Virus record (IMG/VR): IMGVR_UViG_3300031658_000137
Span: 1-23,382 of that record
Reading direction: 5' to 3' (one strand)
DNA length: 23,382 nt
Source of the DNA: a virus
Part shown: positions 9,081 through 21,813 of the stretch, one piece after another
Layout of the letters: each line of letters opens with the position of its first letter
Numbering within the stretch: the first letter of the stretch is position 1
Made by a program: the position numbers and the translations under genes
Notes under the pieces: model-generated
The model's input: the letters and a program-made list of their open reading frames with translations, nothing else
What the model was told of the DNA's origin: nothing
Database searches by the model: none

Positions 9081-9311
9081 CTATAATATCTTCCACGCTC
9101 TATCTTTTATCTCGCCAGTCATAGCGATAGATTCAAGATTAGCCATGATTTCATTTAATGATCTTATTCGTTGGTAAGCAAATTCCCTTTCATTTGCACT
9201 ATCATCCGCAGAATACATAATCATATTTAATTGTGTATTTTTCATTTCTTCCATCACATCCAGAAACTCTTGAGATTGCATCAAGTTTTTTATAGCTTCT
9301 TGTTGGGTCAT
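9081..9311 (-). CDS. Small helical protein of unknown function
   Basis: 76-aa protein, nearly all predicted helix (MTQQEAIKNLMQSQEFLDVMEEMKN..., NEREFAYQRIRSLNEIMANLESIA), Met- and Glu-rich, with no Cys. Its ATG overlaps the portal stop (ATGA), so translation is probably coupled to portal. A gap of about 50 nt with an imperfect inverted repeat (TACCAC/GTGGTA at 9044-9060) separates it from the scaffold-like gene. I do not recognise the family. Position suggests a small head-assembly factor, by inference only. Confidence 0.6.
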   Translation of the reverse strand: MTQQEAIKNLMQSQEFLDVMEEMKNTQLNMIMYSADDSANEREFAYQRIRSLNEIMANLESIAMTGEIKDRAWKIL

Positions 9312-11488
9312 CTTTGCATACCCTTCTGAGTGATGTTATTAATCTTTTCTAAAGCATCCATTATTGTCTTAGATTTAGCCATCGAGCTATTGTCTTGTTG
9401 TCCTTTAGCTTTTATTGCTAACTCTAATTCTTGTAATGCAAACTCTTTGGTTTGTTGTATCTCTTTCATCTGAAGTTCTAGCGCATCTTTCTGAGCGTCT
9501 AGTTGCATCTGTTCACGATCTAACATAAGTTTCTGTTCAGCAGATTGAGCTCTCATTTGAGCCTTCTGTATTTCAGCTTTAGCTAATGCTTCTGCTGCAG
9601 CTACTTGAGAATCAGCCGTTGGATTATCATTTGCTTCCTGAGCCATTTGCATTGCTTGTTCTTCTGATACTTCCATAAGGAATTGACTATCATCTTTAAA
9701 TCCAGCCATATGAACAAACTTAGCTAAAGTATCTCTGTATTGTTTAAGATTAACTAAAGGATTGCCTATACCGTAAGATTTAATGATCTCTTCTTGTTTC
9801 TGTAGAATCATTTGCATAGTAGATAGTTGCTCTTGCTTACTACCAGTTCCTAAGCCTACATTAACTGTAACGTTGTATTCATTTTTCCATTCCCTAGGAT
9901 CAAATGATACGAACTCTTTATTGACTCTAATAATTCTTTCTTTTTGTTGGTATTTACATACTAGATGGAAGATACCTTTAAATAATGATGTAACCCCTGT
10001 TTCTGCAAATATACGTGCTATTAATTCAAGCTTACCACCCGCTTGGTTCGTCATGGCGGCTATAGCAGTCGCTGTTACGTTTTGGAGTATACTTGGATCC
10101 AACCCTTGCTGAGCATCTGAAACTCCTGTACGTTTGGCTTGTACGCCGTCCAAATATTCCAACATAGGAAAAGATTGGTTAGCATTAGATGTTACTTGCA
10201 TAGGAACTAAAGCATTAGGGCTCTTAATTCTTACTACCCCACCTGCTGTAGATGTTAATAGATCATCGAGGTTAACTTGTCCTTCTACTGCGCCAACTCT
10301 ATAATTATTAGTTAGATATAGATTATCTAGCATCTGTCTTGTTACTGTTGATTTTATTAGTTGTAGATCTAGTCCTCTATCAGCTAATGATTGACCAAAG
10401 AATTTATGTGGGATTGGGATTGGGCATAAGCTATGGAAAGGTATGTAATCACACTCTTCATCCGCTAATATCTCGTTAGATGCATAACATACACGTCTTA
10501 GTTCAGCGATACCATCACCGTTAAAATCAGTCTTAATATAGCATTCATAGTATTCCACCAACTCAAGAGCTGGCTCTAGATTATCCATGTCTGTAGGAAG
10601 TTCACCACGAGAATATCTAGCTATTCTTTCTGGAGTAAAATCTAGTGCATCCCCAGTAGCTAATGAGTAAACTAATTCTTCATCGTATCCCATAGCCACT
10701 AATTCTGATCTTGTTACCATCTTACGGTGTGCAGTAAAATCTGAATCAGCTATTGTTCTAGCTCTCTTAGAGATTAAAAACTCTTCTGGTGGGACGGTCT
10801 CTATTTTTACTCTACCTTTATCTGATTCCCTTGATACTTTAATATCATGAGTTCTTATAACAGTTGGAGGTACATCTTGCATCATTGGCATACCAGTCAT
10901 AGGATCAATTTGTGGTTGTCCAGACATAGGATCCATAACAGGTTGTGGAGGATTCTCTTCCTCTTCTTCAGTTGTCTTTTGTGATACTATTTTTACATCA
11001 TCATCATCTAGTATTAGGGCTAACTCGTTATCATCTAGCCCATAATATTTTTCAGTTGTAACGTCCTTTGAGTCATCCCAGTATGCTTTTGTGATTCCGA
11101 CTTTTTGCAAAAGTGAATCTTTGAACCAATCATGCATTATAGAAAAGCCTTGGTTGTCCTTATAAAAAATGTGGTTTACATAATTTGTCGCTTGTTCGGC
11201 TTGCTCAGCGTCACCACTTGAGACTGGCTCAAACTCTACTGCCTTCTTTGATGCAGTAAAAGTACGGAGAATTTGCGGCAGAGCCCCATCGATAATCTCT
11301 GCAACCTCCCCAGTAACTATCTGTGATTTTCCAGGTTGCTCGTTGCCATATTTCTCCCGCATATAATACTCTAGGGCTTCTTGGCGTTGGTGAGTAGTCT
11401 CTGTCTCTAGGTATCCAATAGAGTCATTAATCTCTCCCTCTATGTATGCCTTTAACGATTCGTTTGATTCATTTTTTTTGTATGTCAT
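9308..11488 (-). CDS. Portal protein, P22-like
   Basis: 726-aa protein forming the dodecameric DNA-entry ring at the head vertex. It is almost exactly the length of P22 portal (725 aa). Visible segments: an N-terminal helical region (LKAYIEGEINDSIGYLETET...RQEALEYYM), TGEVAEIIDGALPQILRTFTASKKAVEFEP near residues 60-90 (typical of this family), a charged insert with DDDDVK and a Pro/Met/Gln loop (PVMDPMSGQPQ), then PPEEFLISKRARTI, ITKAYW and LTNNYRVGAVEGQVNLDDLL. Residues 590-715 are a long Ala/Gln/Glu/Lys helix like the barrel region of P22 portal. It lies 3 nt after the large terminase, the standard order. Confidence 0.85.
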   Translation of the reverse strand: MTYKKNESNESLKAYIEGEINDSIGYLETETTHQRQEALEYYMREKYGNEQPGKSQIVTGEVAEIIDGALPQILRTFTASKKAVEFEPVSSGDAEQAEQATNYVNHIFYKDNQGFSIMHDWFKDSLLQKVGITKAYWDDSKDVTTEKYYGLDDNELALILDDDDVKIVSQKTTEEEEENPPQPVMDPMSGQPQIDPMTGMPMMQDVPPTVIRTHDIKVSRESDKGRVKIETVPPEEFLISKRARTIADSDFTAHRKMVTRSELVAMGYDEELVYSLATGDALDFTPERIARYSRGELPTDMDNLEPALELVEYYECYIKTDFNGDGIAELRRVCYASNEILADEECDYIPFHSLCPIPIPHKFFGQSLADRGLDLQLIKSTVTRQMLDNLYLTNNYRVGAVEGQVNLDDLLTSTAGGVVRIKSPNALVPMQVTSNANQSFPMLEYLDGVQAKRTGVSDAQQGLDPSILQNVTATAIAAMTNQAGGKLELIARIFAETGVTSLFKGIFHLVCKYQQKERIIRVNKEFVSFDPREWKNEYNVTVNVGLGTGSKQEQLSTMQMILQKQEEIIKSYGIGNPLVNLKQYRDTLAKFVHMAGFKDDSQFLMEVSEEQAMQMAQEANDNPTADSQVAAAEALAKAEIQKAQMRAQSAEQKLMLDREQMQLDAQKDALELQMKEIQQTKEFALQELELAIKAKGQQDNSSMAKSKTIMDALEKINNITQKGMQR

Positions 11489-11491
11489 TTT

Positions 11492-12754
11492 TTACACGAT
11501 CCATTGATTGTTTGATTTAATAGGCTCATCCCAAGATGATTCCTCATTAGACATGCTATCTACTACACTACATACATATCTCCATGCATCAGCGCCATGA
11601 GAATACTCGTCATGAAGTGGGGCACCAGGAACTAATGTAGTTTGGTTAATAGCTCTTCTGTAATTTTTTAAGCATTCGATAAGACGTTTACTCTTGTTCT
11701 CATCAAAGTAAGCTCTTGCAAACGCCATCCTTGCAATCTTTATACCAGTCTCTATGTCACTTCTAGGTATTACTTCTGTTTTCCACCCTAACCGTTGCAT
11801 GATCTCTTCAGCACTTGTACCGTACTTGAAATCTTTATTCCTAGCATCGTGAGGTAGATACATTTTTCCCCAGTTATGACCTAATTTCTTGAGCTGATCA
11901 GAGTAGCTATCGAGTGTCCTATGATCATCTTCTATGTAGTCAATCACTCTTAATTCAGATAGTGATCTTTGACATAAGATAATTGCCATTGAATCGTTCC
12001 ATCCTAGATCCATAACAACGTGTGTCTTTAATAAAGCATCTGGAGGTAAGTTAGCTATCCTTCCACCTTCCTGAGCCATTCTTATTTCGTTGTGATATAT
12101 AGCTCCATCTGCTGCAGCTTTGGTATCACCTTCCCATATATTTGCGTAATCTTCTTTGTTGTGTACCTTGCATCTAGCCCGTTCAATCTCTAATACTTGA
12201 GGGAACCAAGGATTATCACTGTAATTAACTTTCTCTATTCTGGCGTTTGGTGGCTTCTGGACCACAAACCGTTTATAGGTATCATCAGTATCCATATAAG
12301 GATTGAAGGTAACCCATATCTCACTAGAAGGTTTTCTTATCGTTGGGATAAGTATGTCGTATGATCGTTTACTTACTGATTGAGCCTCTTCTATCCAGAC
12401 CCTATCAACTCCCTCAAAAGACTTAATTGATTCAACCGTATTCGATGCTAGACCAGCAAAAGTAAACTCCGTACCATTCTTACCACGGATAGATGATTCC
12501 ACTACCTCGTAGAAGTCTCCCAGACCTAATACTTGTATCTGATCCTTTAATAAGGTGTGTACTGATTGCTTAATAGACTTCTGCACCTCTCTGGTACATA
12601 GTATTCTAAGCTTCTGTTCAACGCCCTGTAGTATTAAAGCTCTAGCAAAGCCCCAAGACTTACCTGATCCCCTACCTCCATAAGCTACCTTATATCGATG
12701 TGGTTCAAATAGGAACTTAAGCTTACTCGGAAACTTTTGAGTCTCTATCTGCAT
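11492..12754 (-). CDS. terL: Terminase large subunit
   Basis: 420-aa DNA-packaging motor from the ATG at 12754; a TTG two codons earlier is a weaker option. The ATPase domain shows Walker A GGRGSGKS at about residues 26-33 within YKVAYGGRGSGKSWGFARAL and Walker B VDRVWIEEA near residue 120, followed by the TFNP coupling motif (IWVTFNPYMDTDD). The C-terminal nuclease domain contains VVMDLGWNDSMAI, LPHDARNKDF and the final acidic motif HDEYSHGADAWRY. These are features of the PBSX-type/Terminase_3 family. It translocates DNA into the procapsid and cuts concatemers together with the small subunit. The gene overlaps the small-subunit-like gene upstream by 32 nt and precedes portal directly. Confidence 0.93.
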   Translation of the reverse strand: MQIETQKFPSKLKFLFEPHRYKVAYGGRGSGKSWGFARALILQGVEQKLRILCTREVQKSIKQSVHTLLKDQIQVLGLGDFYEVVESSIRGKNGTEFTFAGLASNTVESIKSFEGVDRVWIEEAQSVSKRSYDILIPTIRKPSSEIWVTFNPYMDTDDTYKRFVVQKPPNARIEKVNYSDNPWFPQVLEIERARCKVHNKEDYANIWEGDTKAAADGAIYHNEIRMAQEGGRIANLPPDALLKTHVVMDLGWNDSMAIILCQRSLSELRVIDYIEDDHRTLDSYSDQLKKLGHNWGKMYLPHDARNKDFKYGTSAEEIMQRLGWKTEVIPRSDIETGIKIARMAFARAYFDENKSKRLIECLKNYRRAINQTTLVPGAPLHDEYSHGADAWRYVCSVVDSMSNEESSWDEPIKSNNQWIV

Positions 12755-13052
12755 CAACAAATTCTACCTTTAAGTTCTGAGTTAACGATCCATCAGAAGA
12801 GGTTATATCTGTCTCACTTCTAACCTTTCCTTCTAAACGATCTAAGACTATGTCAATTGCTTTAGTATCTCCACCCTCAGCTTTAGACACTAATGCTTCC
12901 ATTACAGATCTAGCACGTAATGCATCATCCTGAGTAATAATCCTGTTCAAGGTATCATTCAGTAACCTATTCTTTTTACTGGAATAATTATTCCCAACAC
13001 TGGCTTCTTTAGCCTTGTCTTGAGCTAACCTTAATTGTTCTTCTTTTGTCAT
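12723..13052 (-). CDS. Terminase small subunit-like protein
   Basis: 109-aa protein immediately upstream of, and overlapping, the large terminase, the position of the DNA-recognition subunit. The pattern KKNRLLNDTLNRIITQDDALRARSVMEALVSKAEGGDTKAIDIVLDRLEGKV is that of a widespread phage family. In that family a helical block, an (E)GD..AI..v.DRL.GK motif and a TGADG-like tail (here SSDGSLT) precede terminase genes. No classic helix-turn-helix is obvious by eye. It probably binds the packaging site, but the small-subunit role rests on position and resemblance. Confidence 0.65.
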   Translation of the reverse strand: MTKEEQLRLAQDKAKEASVGNNYSSKKNRLLNDTLNRIITQDDALRARSVMEALVSKAEGGDTKAIDIVLDRLEGKVRSETDITSSDGSLTQNLKVEFVDADRDSKVSE

Positions 13053-13835: not shown

Positions 13836-13900
13836 ACTATTTCTTACCGTACCCTTTTCTACTCTTAACTTTTTTCACTAAGATTACTCCAGAACAGAAT

Positions 13901-13925
13901 AAAAAAAATCCCACCGAAGTGGGAT
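13901..13925 (-). terminator. Rho-independent terminator in the late leader (tR'-like)
   Basis: On the minus strand a perfect 7-bp stem ATCCCAC-TTCG-GTGGGAT is followed by eight T residues, a textbook intrinsic terminator with a UUCG loop. It lies about 70 nt downstream of the promoter at 14001-14029 and before the first late gene. This is the arrangement of lambda-type late leaders, where Q protein allows read-through. On the plus strand the T-tract is absent. Confidence 0.88.
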
Positions 13926-14000
13926 CTAAACAAAGGAGGATGTTTAAGAATATAAAGAAGATTACGTTGTCAGTGAACGCTACTTCCCTATATACCCTCT

Positions 14001-14029
14001 ATTATAGCAAAAAAATAGCCATGAGCCAA
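14001..14029 (-). promoter_or_regulatory. Putative late promoter (pR'-like)
   Basis: Minus strand: -35 TTGGCT at 14024-14029, 17-bp spacer, perfect -10 TATAAT at 14001-14006 with an upstream TGC (extended -10). A second -10-like element, TATATA, lies at 13989-13994, right at the expected start of transcription. Q-type antiterminators act on polymerase paused at such a promoter-proximal -10-like element. The terminator at 13901-13925 follows about 70 nt later, then the whole capsid operon. Sequence elements are seen; Q dependence is inferred. Confidence 0.75.
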
Positions 14030-14125
14030 TCACTTACCCTCAAATAAATATTCTAGTAAGCAACCTATCGTCCCAAAGACTCCTATTACAAACAACAACC
14101 ACAGAATTAATATTATATCATCCAT
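14030..14125 (-). CDS. Tiny single-span membrane peptide (31 aa)
   Basis: ATG at 14125 preceded by a strong AAGGGG ribosome site. The peptide MDDIILILWLLFVIGVFGTI followed by GCLLEYLFEGK is one hydrophobic transmembrane helix with an acidic start and a short charged end. It ends exactly where the late promoter -35 begins. Phages often encode such mini-membrane proteins near late promoters or among moron-like genes. Possible roles are membrane remodelling, a lysis helper or superinfection control, and none can be shown here. The strong ribosome site and the complete hydrophobic helix support a real gene. Confidence 0.6.
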   Translation of the reverse strand: MDDIILILWLLFVIGVFGTIGCLLEYLFEGK

Positions 14126-14157: not shown

Positions 14158-14892
14158 CTAAGCCCACCTCTGAATTGGTGTTAAATCTTTCTTTACCCAT
14201 TCCTTACACTGCTTTTTGTTGTACCCTATTTCTGACTCTAACATTCTTATTCTGATCTTTGTTTTTCTCATATCGATACCCTGAGAAACTGTTTTACTAA
14301 CGCCCCTTATTAAACTATCCAATGTACTCTCTAAGCTAATGATATATTTTTCTTTGTGATCTTTAGATACTTCAAATGGAACCTGTTCAGCTCCGTAACA
14401 AACTTGATTAAAATATCCGTTATCTACATTGTAACCATGCTTAGCTACCAAGCCAGAGTCAACTTCACCTCTGGAGACTTTATGAAGTCTTCCACAAACT
14501 TGGCAAGTACCTAAATGAGTAGCTTGGTTCTTAGTTGCTTTAAAGGTAACTTTTTTTCTTACTACTGGAATAACTGGTAAAGATCTAACTAGATCGTCAA
14601 GGTCTTTTAATTGAAGTGGAAACTTAGGGTCAATACCTAGCTTGTTTAGTAAAGGTATATGCTTAACTTTAAAGAACCTAAGATCAAAAGGAATATCACA
14701 TGAAATTGAATATCTATCTTCATCACTTAGATCATGGCTCTCAAACTCTTTTGATGTAGCATTACTAAATAAGTTGTTAAGAATTTCAGTTGCTTGCTTC
14801 TTAGCTACCTTAGTGTAAAACATCTTTTGTTCTATTGCTTCGTCAACCTTTGCTAGCCTAGCAGTTGTTAATTTTTCATTTAATGATGTCAT
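14158..14892 (-). CDS. Conserved phage zinc-binding protein, unknown function
   Basis: 244-aa protein. N-terminal half is helical and charged (ARLAKVDEAIEQKMFYTKVAKKQATEIL). The C-terminal half carries a probable metal site: C130-QV-C133-GRLHKVSRGEV, H152 in KHGYNVDNGY, and C165 in NQVCYGA, followed by VPFEVSKDHKEKYI and another long helix. The same C..CGR.H ... HGY ... C.G ... P.E.S arrangement occurs in many phage and prophage proteins of unknown role. It has a promoter of its own (14937-14965) that carries the shared operator, so it belongs to the early regulon although it lies beyond Q. A GAGG ribosome site precedes the start. A DNA- or RNA-binding role is plausible. Confidence 0.65.
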   Translation of the reverse strand: MTSLNEKLTTARLAKVDEAIEQKMFYTKVAKKQATEILNNLFSNATSKEFESHDLSDEDRYSISCDIPFDLRFFKVKHIPLLNKLGIDPKFPLQLKDLDDLVRSLPVIPVVRKKVTFKATKNQATHLGTCQVCGRLHKVSRGEVDSGLVAKHGYNVDNGYFNQVCYGAEQVPFEVSKDHKEKYIISLESTLDSLIRGVSKTVSQGIDMRKTKIRIRMLESEIGYNKKQCKEWVKKDLTPIQRWA

Positions 14893-14936: not shown

Positions 14937-14965
14937 ATTGTCTCAAATCACAACTAAGTTGTCAA
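14937..14965 (-). promoter_or_regulatory. Operator-controlled promoter of the 14158-14892 gene
   Basis: Minus strand: perfect -35 TTGACA at 14960-14965, 17-bp spacer, -10 GACAAT at 14937-14942. A 13-bp palindrome (ACAACT-N-AGTTGT) at 14950-14962 overlaps the -35 and spacer, so a bound repressor would block polymerase. The region is part of a perfect 31-bp repeat of the rightward early promoter at 20071-20101. Confidence 0.8.
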
Positions 14966-15183: not shown

Positions 15184-15513
15184 CTATGCATATATTCTTT
15201 TAGCGGTTAGCTTGAGAAGGTTCTCAATAGCATCTTGATATTTAAACTCCGAAGCAAACGGCTCCTTCCCATTAAGGTGCTTAAAGTAAAGAGCTTCTCT
15301 TTGTTCTTGAGGTAGCCCTGAAATAATTGCATCCATAATTATTACGTTACGTTTATCACTTTGATCTACCATCTCATCAAAAGCGTGAGTCGAATAACTA
15401 CCAGTAGACATATAGGACACCTTACTAGGATAGCCAAGCTTATGATTGTCAAACCTCATCCATGTAGACCAAGCGTCTAATAAATAAAGGATCCTAGATA
15501 TAGGTAAACTCAC
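15184..15513 (-). CDS. Antitermination protein Q-like
   Basis: 109-aa protein with the N-terminal pattern RILYLLDAWSTWMRFDNHKLGYPSKVSY, the mark of the phage antitermination Q family of the lambdoid 933W/P22-like group (aromatic helix W..W.R followed by lGYPS). The second half, ISGLPQEQREALYFKHLNG, is the sigma-like helix found in the same family. It should bind at or near the late promoter and modify RNA polymerase to read through the leader terminator. It is the last gene of the leftward early operon, the classic place for Q, and its start overlaps the gene before it. A fitting target (promoter 14001-14029, terminator 13901-13925) lies about 1.2 kb downstream. Family call fairly firm. Confidence 0.75.
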   Translation of the reverse strand: MSLPISRILYLLDAWSTWMRFDNHKLGYPSKVSYMSTGSYSTHAFDEMVDQSDKRNVIIMDAIISGLPQEQREALYFKHLNGKEPFASEFKYQDAIENLLKLTAKRIYA

Positions 15514-16687: not shown

Positions 16688-17302
16688 TTAAAACTCCATA
16701 ATTACCTGTGTTGATGGTTTGTGATCTATCTTATACCTTTCAGTCTCCCCTTTAGGGTAAGGCAACACCTCATACTTCAATTTACTTCTTAAAACTTTCT
16801 TGTCATTTTTAGTTCCATTAAAAATAACATATCGATGTTTTGCGCTTCTTTTAACTCTTATTGATGAGTCCCCAAAATTATGCCTACTATGTTTTCCGTC
16901 CTTCCCTGCCATATCAGTTCTCTCTTTAGTGGTTCCAGTAAATAAAAAGTTACAGGATTGATACACATATCCAATATGGTTTTTTGCGGTATCAGCATAA
17001 GAAACAATAATTGTTTTTTGTGGGAGGAGTTTAATAGACCCAGAAACTAACATGCTGGCTTGGTTTTTGTTGTTATTCATTAAGCACAACCTATTCAACT
17101 CTAACACCTTGTCTGAATATTCTTTACCACAAACTCCTACACATAAACTACGAGAGGCAGGCATTCCGTATGTAACAACCCCAGCCAAAGCATCCCCATC
17201 ATACAAACCAAAAGCATACATTATATGAGGGATTCTTTTTGCGTAGTGTACATTTAGCAACCAATCATAAGTTTCTTTGGATTCAATAGGAATTATTTTC
17301 AT
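16688..17302 (-). CDS. Mom-like DNA adenine modification protein
   Basis: 204 aa from the ATG at 17302, which overlaps the stop of the HNH gene (ATGA) and has a GGAG site 5 nt upstream; a farther ATG at 17320 would give a longer overlap and no such site. Landmarks: MKIIPIESKETYDWLLNVHY, IMYAFGLYDGDALAGVVTYG, LELNRLCLMNNNKNQASMLV, KTIIVSYADTAKNHIGYVYQS and CNFLFTGTTKERTD. These match the GNAT-like Mom family, whose founder in phage Mu modifies adenines to protect phage DNA from host restriction. The C-terminal third is basic (RVKRSAKHRYV), as expected for DNA contact. Here it would be made with the replication genes. The substrate modification itself cannot be read from sequence. Confidence 0.75.
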   Translation of the reverse strand: MKIIPIESKETYDWLLNVHYAKRIPHIMYAFGLYDGDALAGVVTYGMPASRSLCVGVCGKEYSDKVLELNRLCLMNNNKNQASMLVSGSIKLLPQKTIIVSYADTAKNHIGYVYQSCNFLFTGTTKERTDMAGKDGKHSRHNFGDSSIRVKRSAKHRYVIFNGTKNDKKVLRSKLKYEVLPYPKGETERYKIDHKPSTQVIMEF

Positions 17303-17592
17303 AAATTCTCCAATACCCATTCAAGCATTTCTGATTCCTTGCCGTACTTTTCAATCCAAGTCTTTGGGCTTGTGTGAAATCCATCTTTACCTTGATGGTG
17401 GTGATGGCAAAGCGGCAATACCATGAAATTATTATTTTTCTGGCTCATTCCCATACCCTCTCTAATGTGATGAAGGTTTGCAGGAGGTGGATCAATTTCA
17501 TCATGATACCTTCTGCATATACAACAGCCAAACTCTGACAATCTGTTGAGCCATTGTTTCTCGTCTTTAGTTTTAGATTTTTTTTTAGCCAT
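17299..17592 (-). CDS. Ref-like HNH nuclease
   Basis: 97-aa protein with FGCCICRRY (C23-C26), NLHHIREGMGMSQ (His pair near residues 41-42), LPLCHHHHQGKDGFHTSP (residues 59-76) and WIEKYGKESEMLEWV. This is the arrangement of the phage Ref/NinX-type recombination nucleases: an HNH fold with a zinc site and iHHIr.g.G, PLC..HHqG...H signatures. The P1 Ref protein is a RecA-dependent nuclease. The lysine-rich first 12 residues probably bind DNA. It overlaps NinB upstream and the Mom-like gene downstream. Likely role is recombination or DNA processing during replication. Confidence 0.78.
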   Translation of the reverse strand: MAKKKSKTKDEKQWLNRLSEFGCCICRRYHDEIDPPPANLHHIREGMGMSQKNNNFMVLPLCHHHHQGKDGFHTSPKTWIEKYGKESEMLEWVLENL

Positions 17593-18102: not shown

Positions 18103-19008
18103 CTAAGAATAATTTAGGCTATCTGGATCAAAATCAAAATTCCAGTGCCCCTCAAATTCATAATGTCTTTGTTTAACTAAATACAATTGAGCGTCTGGGA
18201 TGTTCAGATAATCATCATGACTAATTTGCCCCAACTCTAATCTCTGTTGCTTATGAGTTCTATGTACAACAAAAACATTATCAACAAGATTGGTTATGTG
18301 GGTAGATCCAGATACTGAATGCTTAGTTGGTGCATCGGTATATTCTGAGTTAGATTTTTTAGAGTGAGCCACAACAAAGATGTGAATATTTAAATCTCTA
18401 GCTGCAACACAAATCCTATCAATGAACTTCTTTTGACCTTCATAATCATCCTCAGCAACTCCACACTTCATTAAGGAATCAACGATCACAATTTTTACAT
18501 CAAGCTTTTCTGCTGAGTAATAAATTACGCTCATGATACTTTCGATTCCAACGGTACCTTGTTGATCATATAAATATAAATGACCGTCAAGGTTGTTTAT
18601 CTTCTCTTGGATAAACTCATTACTAGGTAAGCGTGATCCAGACATCTGCCTTAGTAATCTAGCAAGAGAAGATCTAGGCTGTAGCTCGAAAGAAGCTAGG
18701 GTAGTTTTTAGCCCCTTCTTTAATAGCCCCAACATAATCTGACTTAATATCATTGACTTTCCAGACCCAGAAAATCCACTATAAATACTTACTTCTCCAG
18801 GTCTCACCCTAAATCCTTCATGAGTTTTATCCCAAGGAAGTACCGTACCTTTATGATAATCACCAGTAAAGTATTCTTGTATCTGGTTTATATAGCTTGA
18901 TGGATTGTGAATGTTTGTATGCTCATCATTGTCCCTAGTTGAAAAATAACTTTGGATCTCTGATTCGTTGATGATCATCCCTTTGACTTTATCTTTTAGC
19001 GTACTCAT
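18103..19008 (-). CDS. RecA-fold replicative helicase / ATPase
   Basis: 301-aa ATPase. The Walker A motif GFSGSGKS is at residues 78-85, in VRPGEVSIYSGFSGSGKSMILSQ. Then come a glutamate-bearing strand TLASFELQP and the Walker B aspartate D177 (VKIVIVDSLM), followed by HIFVVAHSKK and a late basic segment near TKHSVSGSTHI. This matches the DnaB/Twinkle-type helicase core. It lacks a separate N-terminal primase domain: only about 65 residues precede the ATPase. The primase zinc finger is instead encoded by the gene upstream, which it overlaps by 20 nt. Start has a GGGAGGG site. Role: unwinding at the phage fork. Confidence 0.8.
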   Translation of the reverse strand: MSTLKDKVKGMIINESEIQSYFSTRDNDEHTNIHNPSSYINQIQEYFTGDYHKGTVLPWDKTHEGFRVRPGEVSIYSGFSGSGKSMILSQIMLGLLKKGLKTTLASFELQPRSSLARLLRQMSGSRLPSNEFIQEKINNLDGHLYLYDQQGTVGIESIMSVIYYSAEKLDVKIVIVDSLMKCGVAEDDYEGQKKFIDRICVAARDLNIHIFVVAHSKKSNSEYTDAPTKHSVSGSTHITNLVDNVFVVHRTHKQQRLELGQISHDDYLNIPDAQLYLVKQRHYEFEGHWNFDFDPDSLNYS

Positions 19009-20070: not shown

Positions 20071-20101
20071 AAGTGCTTGACAACTTAGTTGTGATTTGAG
20101 A
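20071..20101 (+). repeat. 31-bp perfect repeat, copy 2 (promoter/operator)
   Basis: Identical to minus-strand 14971-14941. It contains the -35 TTGACA, the operator at 20080-20092 and the spacer up to the first bases of the -10. The sequences diverge immediately outside this block, which suggests a recently copied or strongly constrained control element. Confidence 0.9.
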
Positions 20102-20105: not shown

Positions 20106-20140
20106 CTTTTCGTAGGTTAATTAAACAAAGGGGAAATAAA

Positions 20141-20392
20141 ATGAATACAGATAACTTAAAAGAACTAATTACTGCTGAATTTGAAAACGATGCATATTAC
20201 AACACACCAGTTATTGTAGTAACAAACAATGCAAAAAACTCAGAAACTTTTTCATGTTATATAGACGCTTCTGTAGAATATAACTTACCAGAAATTAATG
20301 AATCTCAAAACAGCGACTTTGTTAGGGTTGGTAATGACGGAGATATGATTAGGTACGAATGTTGGGAATCTAATAACGCCCTATCTATTTAA
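20141..20392 (+). CDS. First rightward early protein, unknown function (83 aa)
   Basis: Starts at the ATG at 20141 with an AAAGGGG site. An in-frame TTG at 20096 lies upstream of the expected transcription start and is rejected. The protein (MNTDNLKELITAEFENDAYY..., TPVIVVTNNAKNSETFSCYI, ...RYECWESNNALSI) is acidic and has no recognised domain. It is the first product of the strongest early promoter and is followed by a terminator-like hairpin, so it should be made early and in quantity. Such first early proteins often inhibit host defences or redirect host machinery; that role is a guess here. DNA-mimic-like acidity is mild. Confidence 0.72.
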   Translation: MNTDNLKELITAEFENDAYYNTPVIVVTNNAKNSETFSCYIDASVEYNLPEINESQNSDFVRVGNDGDMIRYECWESNNALSI

Positions 20393-20422: not shown

Positions 20423-20437
20423 ACAAAGGAGAAACAA

Positions 20438-20638
20438 ATGAATAACAAACAAACAAAAACAGAAACCTCAGAATCAGGATATTCTAGCTTAGAAAAAAGT
20501 GCACATATATATATCAAGCAACTGGAAGCTAGAGTTTCAGAATTACGAAAAGAAAGTGATGAACTAAAAAGAAGGAATAGCAATATGAATAAAAAGCTTT
20601 ATGAGCTATGGACATCAAATGTTAAAGGAGAAAAATAA
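20438..20638 (+). CDS. Small coiled-coil protein
   Basis: 66-aa protein with AAAGGAGAAAC as ribosome site. It has a polar N-terminus (MNNKQTKTETSESGYSSLEK) and then a continuous charged helix, IYIKQLEARVSELRKESDEL and KRRNSNMNKKLYELW, with a heptad pattern typical of a dimeric coiled coil. No other domain. It overlaps the next start (TAATG). Possible roles include oligomerisation scaffold or regulator; not recognised. Confidence 0.65.
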   Translation: MNNKQTKTETSESGYSSLEKSAHIYIKQLEARVSELRKESDELKRRNSNMNKKLYELWTSNVKGEK

Positions 20639-20896: not shown

Positions 20897-20937
20897 AAAC
20901 CCATCAAGCAATTTCGCTTGTTACAAAGGAGAGCATT

Positions 20938-21054
20938 ATGACTATAGAAGAAAATCAGAACGAGTTGCATGCATTGCAACATCACAATCAAAGTCAATCA
21001 CCATCGGAAGTAGAGACCAAACTTACTTCTGAAGATTACAAGGAAGTTGACTAA
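20938..21054 (+). CDS. Short hydrophilic protein (38 aa)
   Basis: Good AAAGGAG ribosome site, ATG at 20938, stop overlapping the next start (TAATG). The peptide (MTIEENQNELHALQHHNQSQ, SPSEVETKLTSEDYKEVD) is acidic and Gln/His-rich, likely disordered or a single helix. No family recognised. The clean spacing and coupling to the next gene support expression. Confidence 0.55.
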   Translation: MTIEENQNELHALQHHNQSQSPSEVETKLTSEDYKEVD

Positions 21055-21276: not shown

Positions 21277-21300
21277 AAATAACAATTCAAAGGAGATGTT

Positions 21301-21813
21301 ATGAAAAAACAATTAAAAACAGTAGACATAAAAGGCAAGGCTTATGTCATGGTCAACGAACGAATAGCTTATTTTCGTGAGCTATATCCTACAGGTACAA
21401 TAATAACTGAGCTATTATCTTCCGATAGTGGAACCCATCTTTTCAAAGCTACTTGTATTAATGATGGAACAATTATTGGAACTGGTCATGCTTCAGAGAA
21501 AGACGGATCTACGTTTATCAATAAAACTTCAGCGCTAGAAAATGCAGAGACCAGTGCAGTAGGTAGGGCACTTGGAATGTGTGGCATTGGTATTGAAGCT
21601 TCTATAGCTACTGCTGAGGAAGTTGGTAATGCAGTAGCTCAACAAGAATCACCTAAGCCATCAGTTGATATTACTGACGACCTAATTATTAAGATTAAAG
21701 ATCAAATGAAAGTGAGCCACGAAAAAGGTGAGCTCAAAGATTTTTTCTTTACCTTAGCACCAGAAGTTCAAACTCTTGTTAGAGGGTATGCTAATGATCT
21801 CCGCTCATCTTAG
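21301..21813 (+). CDS. Erf/Rad52-like single-strand annealing protein
   Basis: 170-aa protein with KGKAYVMVNERIAYFRELYPTGTIITELLS at the N-terminus and TGHASEKDGSTFINKTSALENAETSAVGRALGMCGIGIEASIATAEEV in the middle. The latter is the signature of a phage/bacterial recombination family (ENaETSAvGRALgm.GIGi..siAtAeEv) related to Erf-type annealing proteins. The C-terminal part (VQTLVRGYANDLRSS) ends where the exonuclease begins. It should pair complementary single strands during phage recombination, with the neighbouring nuclease making those strands. A strong AAAGGAG site precedes the ATG. Annealase family assigned with good but not full certainty. Confidence 0.78.
   Translation: MKKQLKTVDIKGKAYVMVNERIAYFRELYPTGTIITELLSSDSGTHLFKATCINDGTIIGTGHASEKDGSTFINKTSALENAETSAVGRALGMCGIGIEASIATAEEVGNAVAQQESPKPSVDITDDLIIKIKDQMKVSHEKGELKDFFFTLAPEVQTLVRGYANDLRSS

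Follow-up and report, generated by a model that had tools for sequence, protein, structure and literature searches.

A probable Q-type late control unit in an uncultured phage and the complementarity of its putative terminated leader RNA to early-gene ribosome-binding sites

In the present work, we analysed a virus record of 23,382 bases from an uncultured marine-type phage (the whole stretch is referred to as the window) and found, ahead of its late genes, an element that is very likely a Q-dependent late-gene control unit. The reading that best accounts for the data overall, and which we consider probable, is that of a pR'-tR' unit in the style of Q21/Q82, the leader of which, once terminated, probably serves as a small RNA directed against early genes. 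As to whether this leader is a functional RNA acting in trans on early-gene ribosome-binding sites (RBSs), we see the chances as even, judging from sequence: complementarity and co-distribution were observed, and repression is what they would lead one to expect.

On the minus strand of the window, a leftward block of terminase, portal, scaffold, capsid and tail genes begins at 13.5 kb, and replication, recombination and nin-type genes lie to the right of 15 kb. The late operon starts with a TerS-like gene, TerL and an SU10-type portal gene (9308-13052, minus strand), which together with the capsid genes agrees with the SU10-like capsid operon that a first-pass annotation had placed downstream of the element. 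The promoter with a perfect TATAAT named in the same annotation was borne out on the minus strand (14029-14001), where a -35 hexamer TTGGCT (14024-14029; four of six consensus positions), kept in the relatives L006, L254 and L255, is followed after a 17-bp spacer by an extended -10, TGC-TATAAT (14001-14009; hexamer at 14006-14001), the hexamer being either TATAAT or TAAAAT in the units of relatives. Likewise, the UUCG terminator with an eight-U tract expected some 70 nt further on was found as a tR'-like intrinsic terminator (13898-13927, minus strand; stem-loop 13927-13906) whose stem lies 73 nt from the -10, and the Q-family gene expected about 1.2 kb upstream corresponds to a Q-like ORF of 109 aa (15184-15513, minus strand), assigned by homologues and predicted fold, ~1155 nt from the late promoter. 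The -35, however, is not embedded in the end of a mini membrane gene, as had been proposed, but abuts the stop codon of this 31-aa gene (14030-14125, minus strand). TGGCT repeats overlap the -35 and spacer of the window and are, by eye, not kept in L006; a QBE, which would lie between -35 and -10 and consists of direct repeats in phage 21, was not recognisable in the unit.

Several further features of the window deserve mention. Single-helix mini genes of 26-31 aa, differing in sequence, stand directly before the late promoter both here and in one related contig (G012), in which the stop codon of the mini gene overlaps the -10 of the leader's promoter. In L006 the promoter follows Q after ~200 nt, and the 1.2-kb gap between Q and promoter in the window therefore looks like an insertion; a gene for a 244-aa protein (14158-14892, minus strand; phrog_17208, E 3e-15) sits within it. 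Two exact copies of a 25-bp promoter/operator TTGACAACTTAGTTGTGATTTGAGA with the palindrome ACAACTtAGTTGT (14941-14965, minus strand, and 20077-20101, plus strand; 0 expected) mark the leftward early promoter and the region upstream of this 244-aa gene, which suggests co-regulation. Besides, the window encodes a Mom-family protein (16688-17320, minus strand; PF25680, E 8e-33), possibly a DNA-modification gene. A sub-threshold match to the Ocean-VII RNA family (18193-18253, minus strand; E 0.14) falls inside the helicase gene and is probably due to chance, and the Rfam search gave no relevant match.

Within the region, neither promoter-like sites (33 versus 47.7 in shuffles) nor terminator-like sites (7 versus 6.7) were commoner than chance, so that the window alone proves nothing and it is conservation in relatives that does. 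The promoter-leader-terminator unit recurs in ~20 distinguishable relatives and is thus real, though not above chance in isolation. In these relatives it either abuts the stop codon of the Q homologue or lies upstream of the terminase: many have a strong promoter at or just past the stop codon of Q, with a terminator 45-85 nt further on, and in others, with a TerL ~67-86% identical to that of the window, the unit is found 1.5-3 kb upstream of TerL. A scan for promoter and terminator pairs over all loci returned 27 non-redundant units. Twenty of them have CTCC in the leader, 18 of these being canonical, and all 18 point in the late direction and either come directly after Q or precede TerL (positions as read by us). 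The other seven units lack CTCC; most of them sit within genes or on the opposite strand, and some belong to other phages. In the closest relatives, both promoter hexamers, the terminator and the greater part of the leader are retained, the terminator stem showing a compensatory change from A-T to T-A (L006/L255). No pR'-tR' unit was recognised in Methylophilales phage Venkman, which has a Q homologue (12602-12928); in that phage (L003), the late genes (13523-38622) are transcribed towards Q.

The identity of the Q-like protein was approached from sequence and from predicted structure. By tblastn, it matched an 'antitermination-like protein' of Venkman (43%) and a 'phage antitermination protein Q' of MW202481 (41%). 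A single-sequence scan of viral contigs with the window's Q found nothing, and a three-sequence profile (window, Venkman, MW202481) yielded 387 relatives in these contigs. For PF06530 (Phage_antitermQ), the window protein gave no hit, matches below the gathering cut-off were obtained in 6/20 family members (best E 0.0011), and hhalign against seven PF06530 proteins was weak but aligned the L..W..W region in register. When its AlphaFold2 model (pLDDT 72, residues 25-43 flexible) was compared with known structures, Q of phage 21 provided the top three matches (VIA; 88-95 of 109 residues, 4-7% identity) with Z 6.0-6.5, a moderate score that is supportive but below safe Z and in a range where a match can reflect a common arrangement. 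The fold of phage 21 Q combines an N-terminal helix, a flexible loop and a domain resembling sigma region 4. The Q21 rows cover most of the model, and most other VIA rows match sigma region 4 alone. Foldseek returned no significant match to the model (E>1), and a profile search of solved structures brought up repeat-protein artefacts only. We refer to the 109-aa protein as Q21-like, and do not count it as a member of Pfam PF06530.

The first-pass annotation had interpreted the element as a Q-dependent pR'/tR' layout, and this part finds good support in its conservation, the Q21-like predicted fold and a pause signal at the lambda position; its choice of TATATA (13989-13994, minus strand) as the pause element does not. 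That TATATA, like its counterpart in lambda pR', induces a sigma-dependent pause by resembling a -10 element is quite improbable. Its offset of 7-12 nt after the -10 is the same as that of lambda AACGAT, and it matches at four of six positions; yet it lacks the final T, and a -10-like hexamer at this place occurs in just 2/20 leaders against 5.4 in shuffles, i.e. more rarely than chance. In the predicted leader fold, TATATA belongs to the 5' arm of the first hairpin (SL1), where it pairs with UUUAUA, and it differs in the closest relatives, the paired arm changing along with it (as in L006). The conserved feature is rather an elemental pause match (G-10 Y-1 G+1) 19-23 nt past the -10, present in 17/20 leaders compared with 4.4 in shuffles and reached in 0/2000 shuffle sets. 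In the window it consists of G-10 at 13988, C-1 at 13979 and G+1 at 13978 (13978-13988, minus strand), with the RNA end at about +16. Lambda and P22 served as yardsticks for this pause signal, which is a match in sequence: its offset past the -10 is 22 in the window and 22 in lambda, and P22 had no match in the same test. The conserved pause signal thus appears to be the elemental pause rather than TATATA, although the latter could still contribute in the window.

If transcription stopped at the terminator, it would give a leader RNA of ~95 nt (13898-13995, minus strand), which we regard as a candidate small RNA. The leader of the window folds far better than its shuffles (z -4.86), and a three-part fold of 5' hairpin, open CUCC and terminator is predicted for 19/19 leaders, one subgroup of which carries the CUCC in the terminator loop. 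In the window, the fold comprises SL1 (13950-13993, minus strand), with an equivalent of changed arms in L254-type leaders, and the putative anti-RBS seed CUCCUUUGUU (13929-13938, minus strand), located partly in the loop of SL2 (13946-13927). Across the 19 leaders, the best CUCC has a mean unpaired probability of 0.94, compared with 0.47 for all positions. CTCC itself is present in 19/19 leaders versus 5.7 in shuffles, a figure to be taken as a guide given that the leader set stems in part from a scan listing CTCC-containing units. The marine leaders, i.e. the lineage of the window, share a longer form of CTCC, CTCCTTTGT(T), in spite of differences in their promoters, hairpins and terminators. 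Some freshwater leaders (e.g. L181, L234 and L164) display an ACUCC loop in the first hairpin as well, resulting in two open CUCC per RNA. The leader is also present in G012, a contig that lacks most early genes. We also considered whether AACAAAGGAG, read on the strand opposite the leader, might itself be an RBS, and rejected this: on inspection by eye, the L263 leader has no suitably spaced ATG, and in the window and L006 the ATG follows at zero spacing.

A fold of this kind is typical of small RNAs, and one might take the element for a free-standing small RNA gene with a strong promoter and terminator, unconnected to Q antitermination, the late genes being served by another promoter. We deem this very unlikely because the unit adjoins a Q homologue or lies upstream of TerL, its promoter overlaps the Q stop codon in several relatives, the elemental pause occupies the lambda position and the predicted fold of the neighbouring protein is Q21-like.

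What sets the leader apart is its relation to the early genes. In the window's lineage, the open stretch CUCCUUUGUU is the exact complement of an extended RBS, AACAAAGGAG, which occurs 5-7 nt before early start codons of the marine genomes as 14 exact 10-mers and six nine-mers, compared with none for late genes. In the window, predicted targets are the first leftward early gene RBS, with TTAAACAAAGGGG before the ATG at 20141 (20121-20143, plus strand; a 10-nt match plus wobble, predicted -16.1 kcal/mol), ACAAAGGAG before the ORF at 20438 (20423-20440, plus strand; -14.2 kcal/mol) and again before a short early ORF (20923-20940, plus strand), and CAAAGGAG before the ORF at 21301 (21288-21303, plus strand; -15.8 kcal/mol), which we read as Erf-like in spite of its lack of a Pfam hit. 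Over all window genes, predicted pairing is stronger for early than for late ones (mean -11.5 vs -7.0 kcal/mol, p 1e-4). The shuffled-leader test was not significant for the window alone (53/500), and shuffles overstate significance in general, since leaders and genomes share ancestry. RBS and leader are also distributed together across loci: ACAAAGGAG makes up 30/86 distinct GGAG sites in loci with a CTCCTTTGT leader versus 0/150 in loci with another CTCC leader. As grouping the loci by CTCCTTTGT alone could be circular, it was redone with an upstream promoter and a GC-rich stretch after the motif required. The C at position -4 before GGAG is found in 34/75 early sites and is rare at neighbouring positions, and when the early RBSs from five marine genomes are compared with marine leaders, freshwater leaders and the 16S tail, the marine leaders give the best match. 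In G004 and G005, early RBSs match their own leaders no further than CUCC. As for RNAs of the StxS type (see below), the leader thus possesses an unpaired seed complementary to predicted target RBSs.

The second line of evidence comes from the late genes. GGAG sites in the window are confined to early genes (13/22 vs 0/17 late, p 8e-5), and similar splits are seen in G006 (18/30 vs 0/7), G007 (8/17 vs 2/25), G008 (9/20 vs 1/21), G004 (9/21 vs 2/35) and MW202481 (13/26 vs 3/35; with deposited starts, 18/33 vs 5/34, p 8e-4). When five marine genomes are pooled, 64/126 early but 3/74 late genes have GGAG; late-gene ribosome sites read AAGGA, AGGAA, AAAGG or GAGGT and almost never GGAG. Individually, the split reaches p < 0.01 in 6/9 leader-bearing genomes and is not significant in G005 (a permuted contig), G009 (few late genes) and G010 (few early genes). 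By contrast, none of six comparison phages (lambda, P22, HTVC106P, Venkman, MW202710, MW202462) exhibits it. With late genes avoiding GGAG and early RBSs able to pair with the leader, the RNA would be expected to lower early translation while sparing late genes.

Could these observations be accommodated without a regulatory RNA? It is conceivable, if rather unlikely, that the element is an ordinary Q-dependent late promoter and nothing else, in which CUCC and hairpin act in cis on pausing, Q loading or RNA stability, the terminated RNA has no targets and the RBS split has another cause. Such a unit requires no more than a promoter, a terminator and a pause, which is indeed conserved, and the freshwater early RBSs match the CUCC core without its flanks. 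Left unexplained, however, are the association of CTCCTTTGT leaders with ACAAAGGAG early RBSs, the CUCC kept open in all folds and the restriction of GGAG-free late genes to leader-bearing phages. Less likely still is that the early genes are exchangeable and their AACAAAGGAG sites reflect either an optimum for the host or mosaic boundaries, the leader mimicking the 16S rRNA tail and acting on ribosomes or host mRNAs generally. The ordinary 16S 3' end is CUCCUUUCU or CUCCUUA, and the leader does share CUCCUUU with it; early genes are, moreover, frequently exchanged in such phages. Yet the usual 16S tail offers no complement to the ACA extension, early RBSs fit the leader better than that tail, one would expect the same signal in the late genes of the phage as well, and the motif stands before dozens of different N-termini. 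The small-RNA reading that we favour has a difficulty of its own with timing, as a constitutive promoter would make leader RNA early as well. A constitutively made leader could take effect through its dosage once template numbers rise, or else silence early genes in a latent state.

Taken together, we propose that host sigma70 RNA polymerase would initiate just downstream of the -10 hexamer (14006-14001, minus strand), pause near +16 at the elemental pause and, when Q is absent, release a transcript of ~95 nt at the UUCG terminator. Loading of the Q21-like protein (15513-15184) onto the paused polymerase would allow read-through into the terminase, portal and capsid genes, as the conserved layout and the predicted fold lead us to infer. 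The terminated leader, composed of 5' hairpin, open CUCC(UUUGUU) stretch and terminator, would probably be a functional small RNA whose CUCC(UUUGUU) pairs with early-gene RBSs of the same phage (consensus AACAAAGGAG) and far more poorly with those of late genes; from this arrangement we would anticipate that the terminated RNA accumulates and that early genes are repressed. Extended to the whole group of marine and freshwater phages, the proposal, for which we find the arguments evenly poised, is that a terminated Q-promoter leader pairs with one shared early RBS consensus and late genes are cleared of GGAG, such that a single RNA switches translation from early to late or silences early genes in latency, seed and RBSs co-evolving.

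While the Q switch is of a known kind, the complementarity between leader and early RBSs appears to be new, and the open-access papers searched contain no description of a late leader that targets an RBS consensus common to early genes. If true, this would assign a role to the leader RNAs of late promoters, among which lambda 6S is reported to be of unexplored function, and describe a phage that splits its early and late genes at the Shine-Dalgarno level, to be read by one small RNA. It would also bring uncultured phages that have SU10-like heads, and a Q too divergent for Pfam, within the range of Q-type control.

Among known phage RNAs, lambda 6S, the pR' leader, has the same genomic position and origin as the leader of the window. 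It differs in being ~190 nt long and in having no known targets, and lambda lacks the early/late GGAG split. 6S has been reported as Hfq-dependent and of unexplored function (PMC12197685). A parallel in mode of action is StxS of Shiga phages, a PR'-tR' small RNA that arises from termination at tR' of the late promoter and binds an RBS (PMC7873438, PMC12197685); origin and base-pairing at an RBS are alike, the latter being predicted here. StxS, however, acts on stx1B and rpoS, whereas the leader described here would target a large number of early genes in its own phage, all by way of one RBS consensus that is conserved within a group of phages. Translation is blocked at RBSs, or close to them, by other antisense RNAs of phages as well, such as c4 RNA of P1/P7 and sar RNA of P22 (PMC12197685), which, unlike our leader, have single targets and are not late-promoter leaders. 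As for the unit itself, the pR'-tR' regions of phage 21, lambda and P22 (PMC6606751) resemble it in the Q-family gene, the sigma70 promoter, the pause near +14 to +16, the short leader, the intrinsic terminator and the late genes downstream, the predicted Q fold being closest to Q21. The window group differs from them in that it has no conserved -10-like hexamer, no recognisable QBE and a Q below the Pfam cut-off, and in that it combines SU10-type head genes with a leader bearing an open CUCC.
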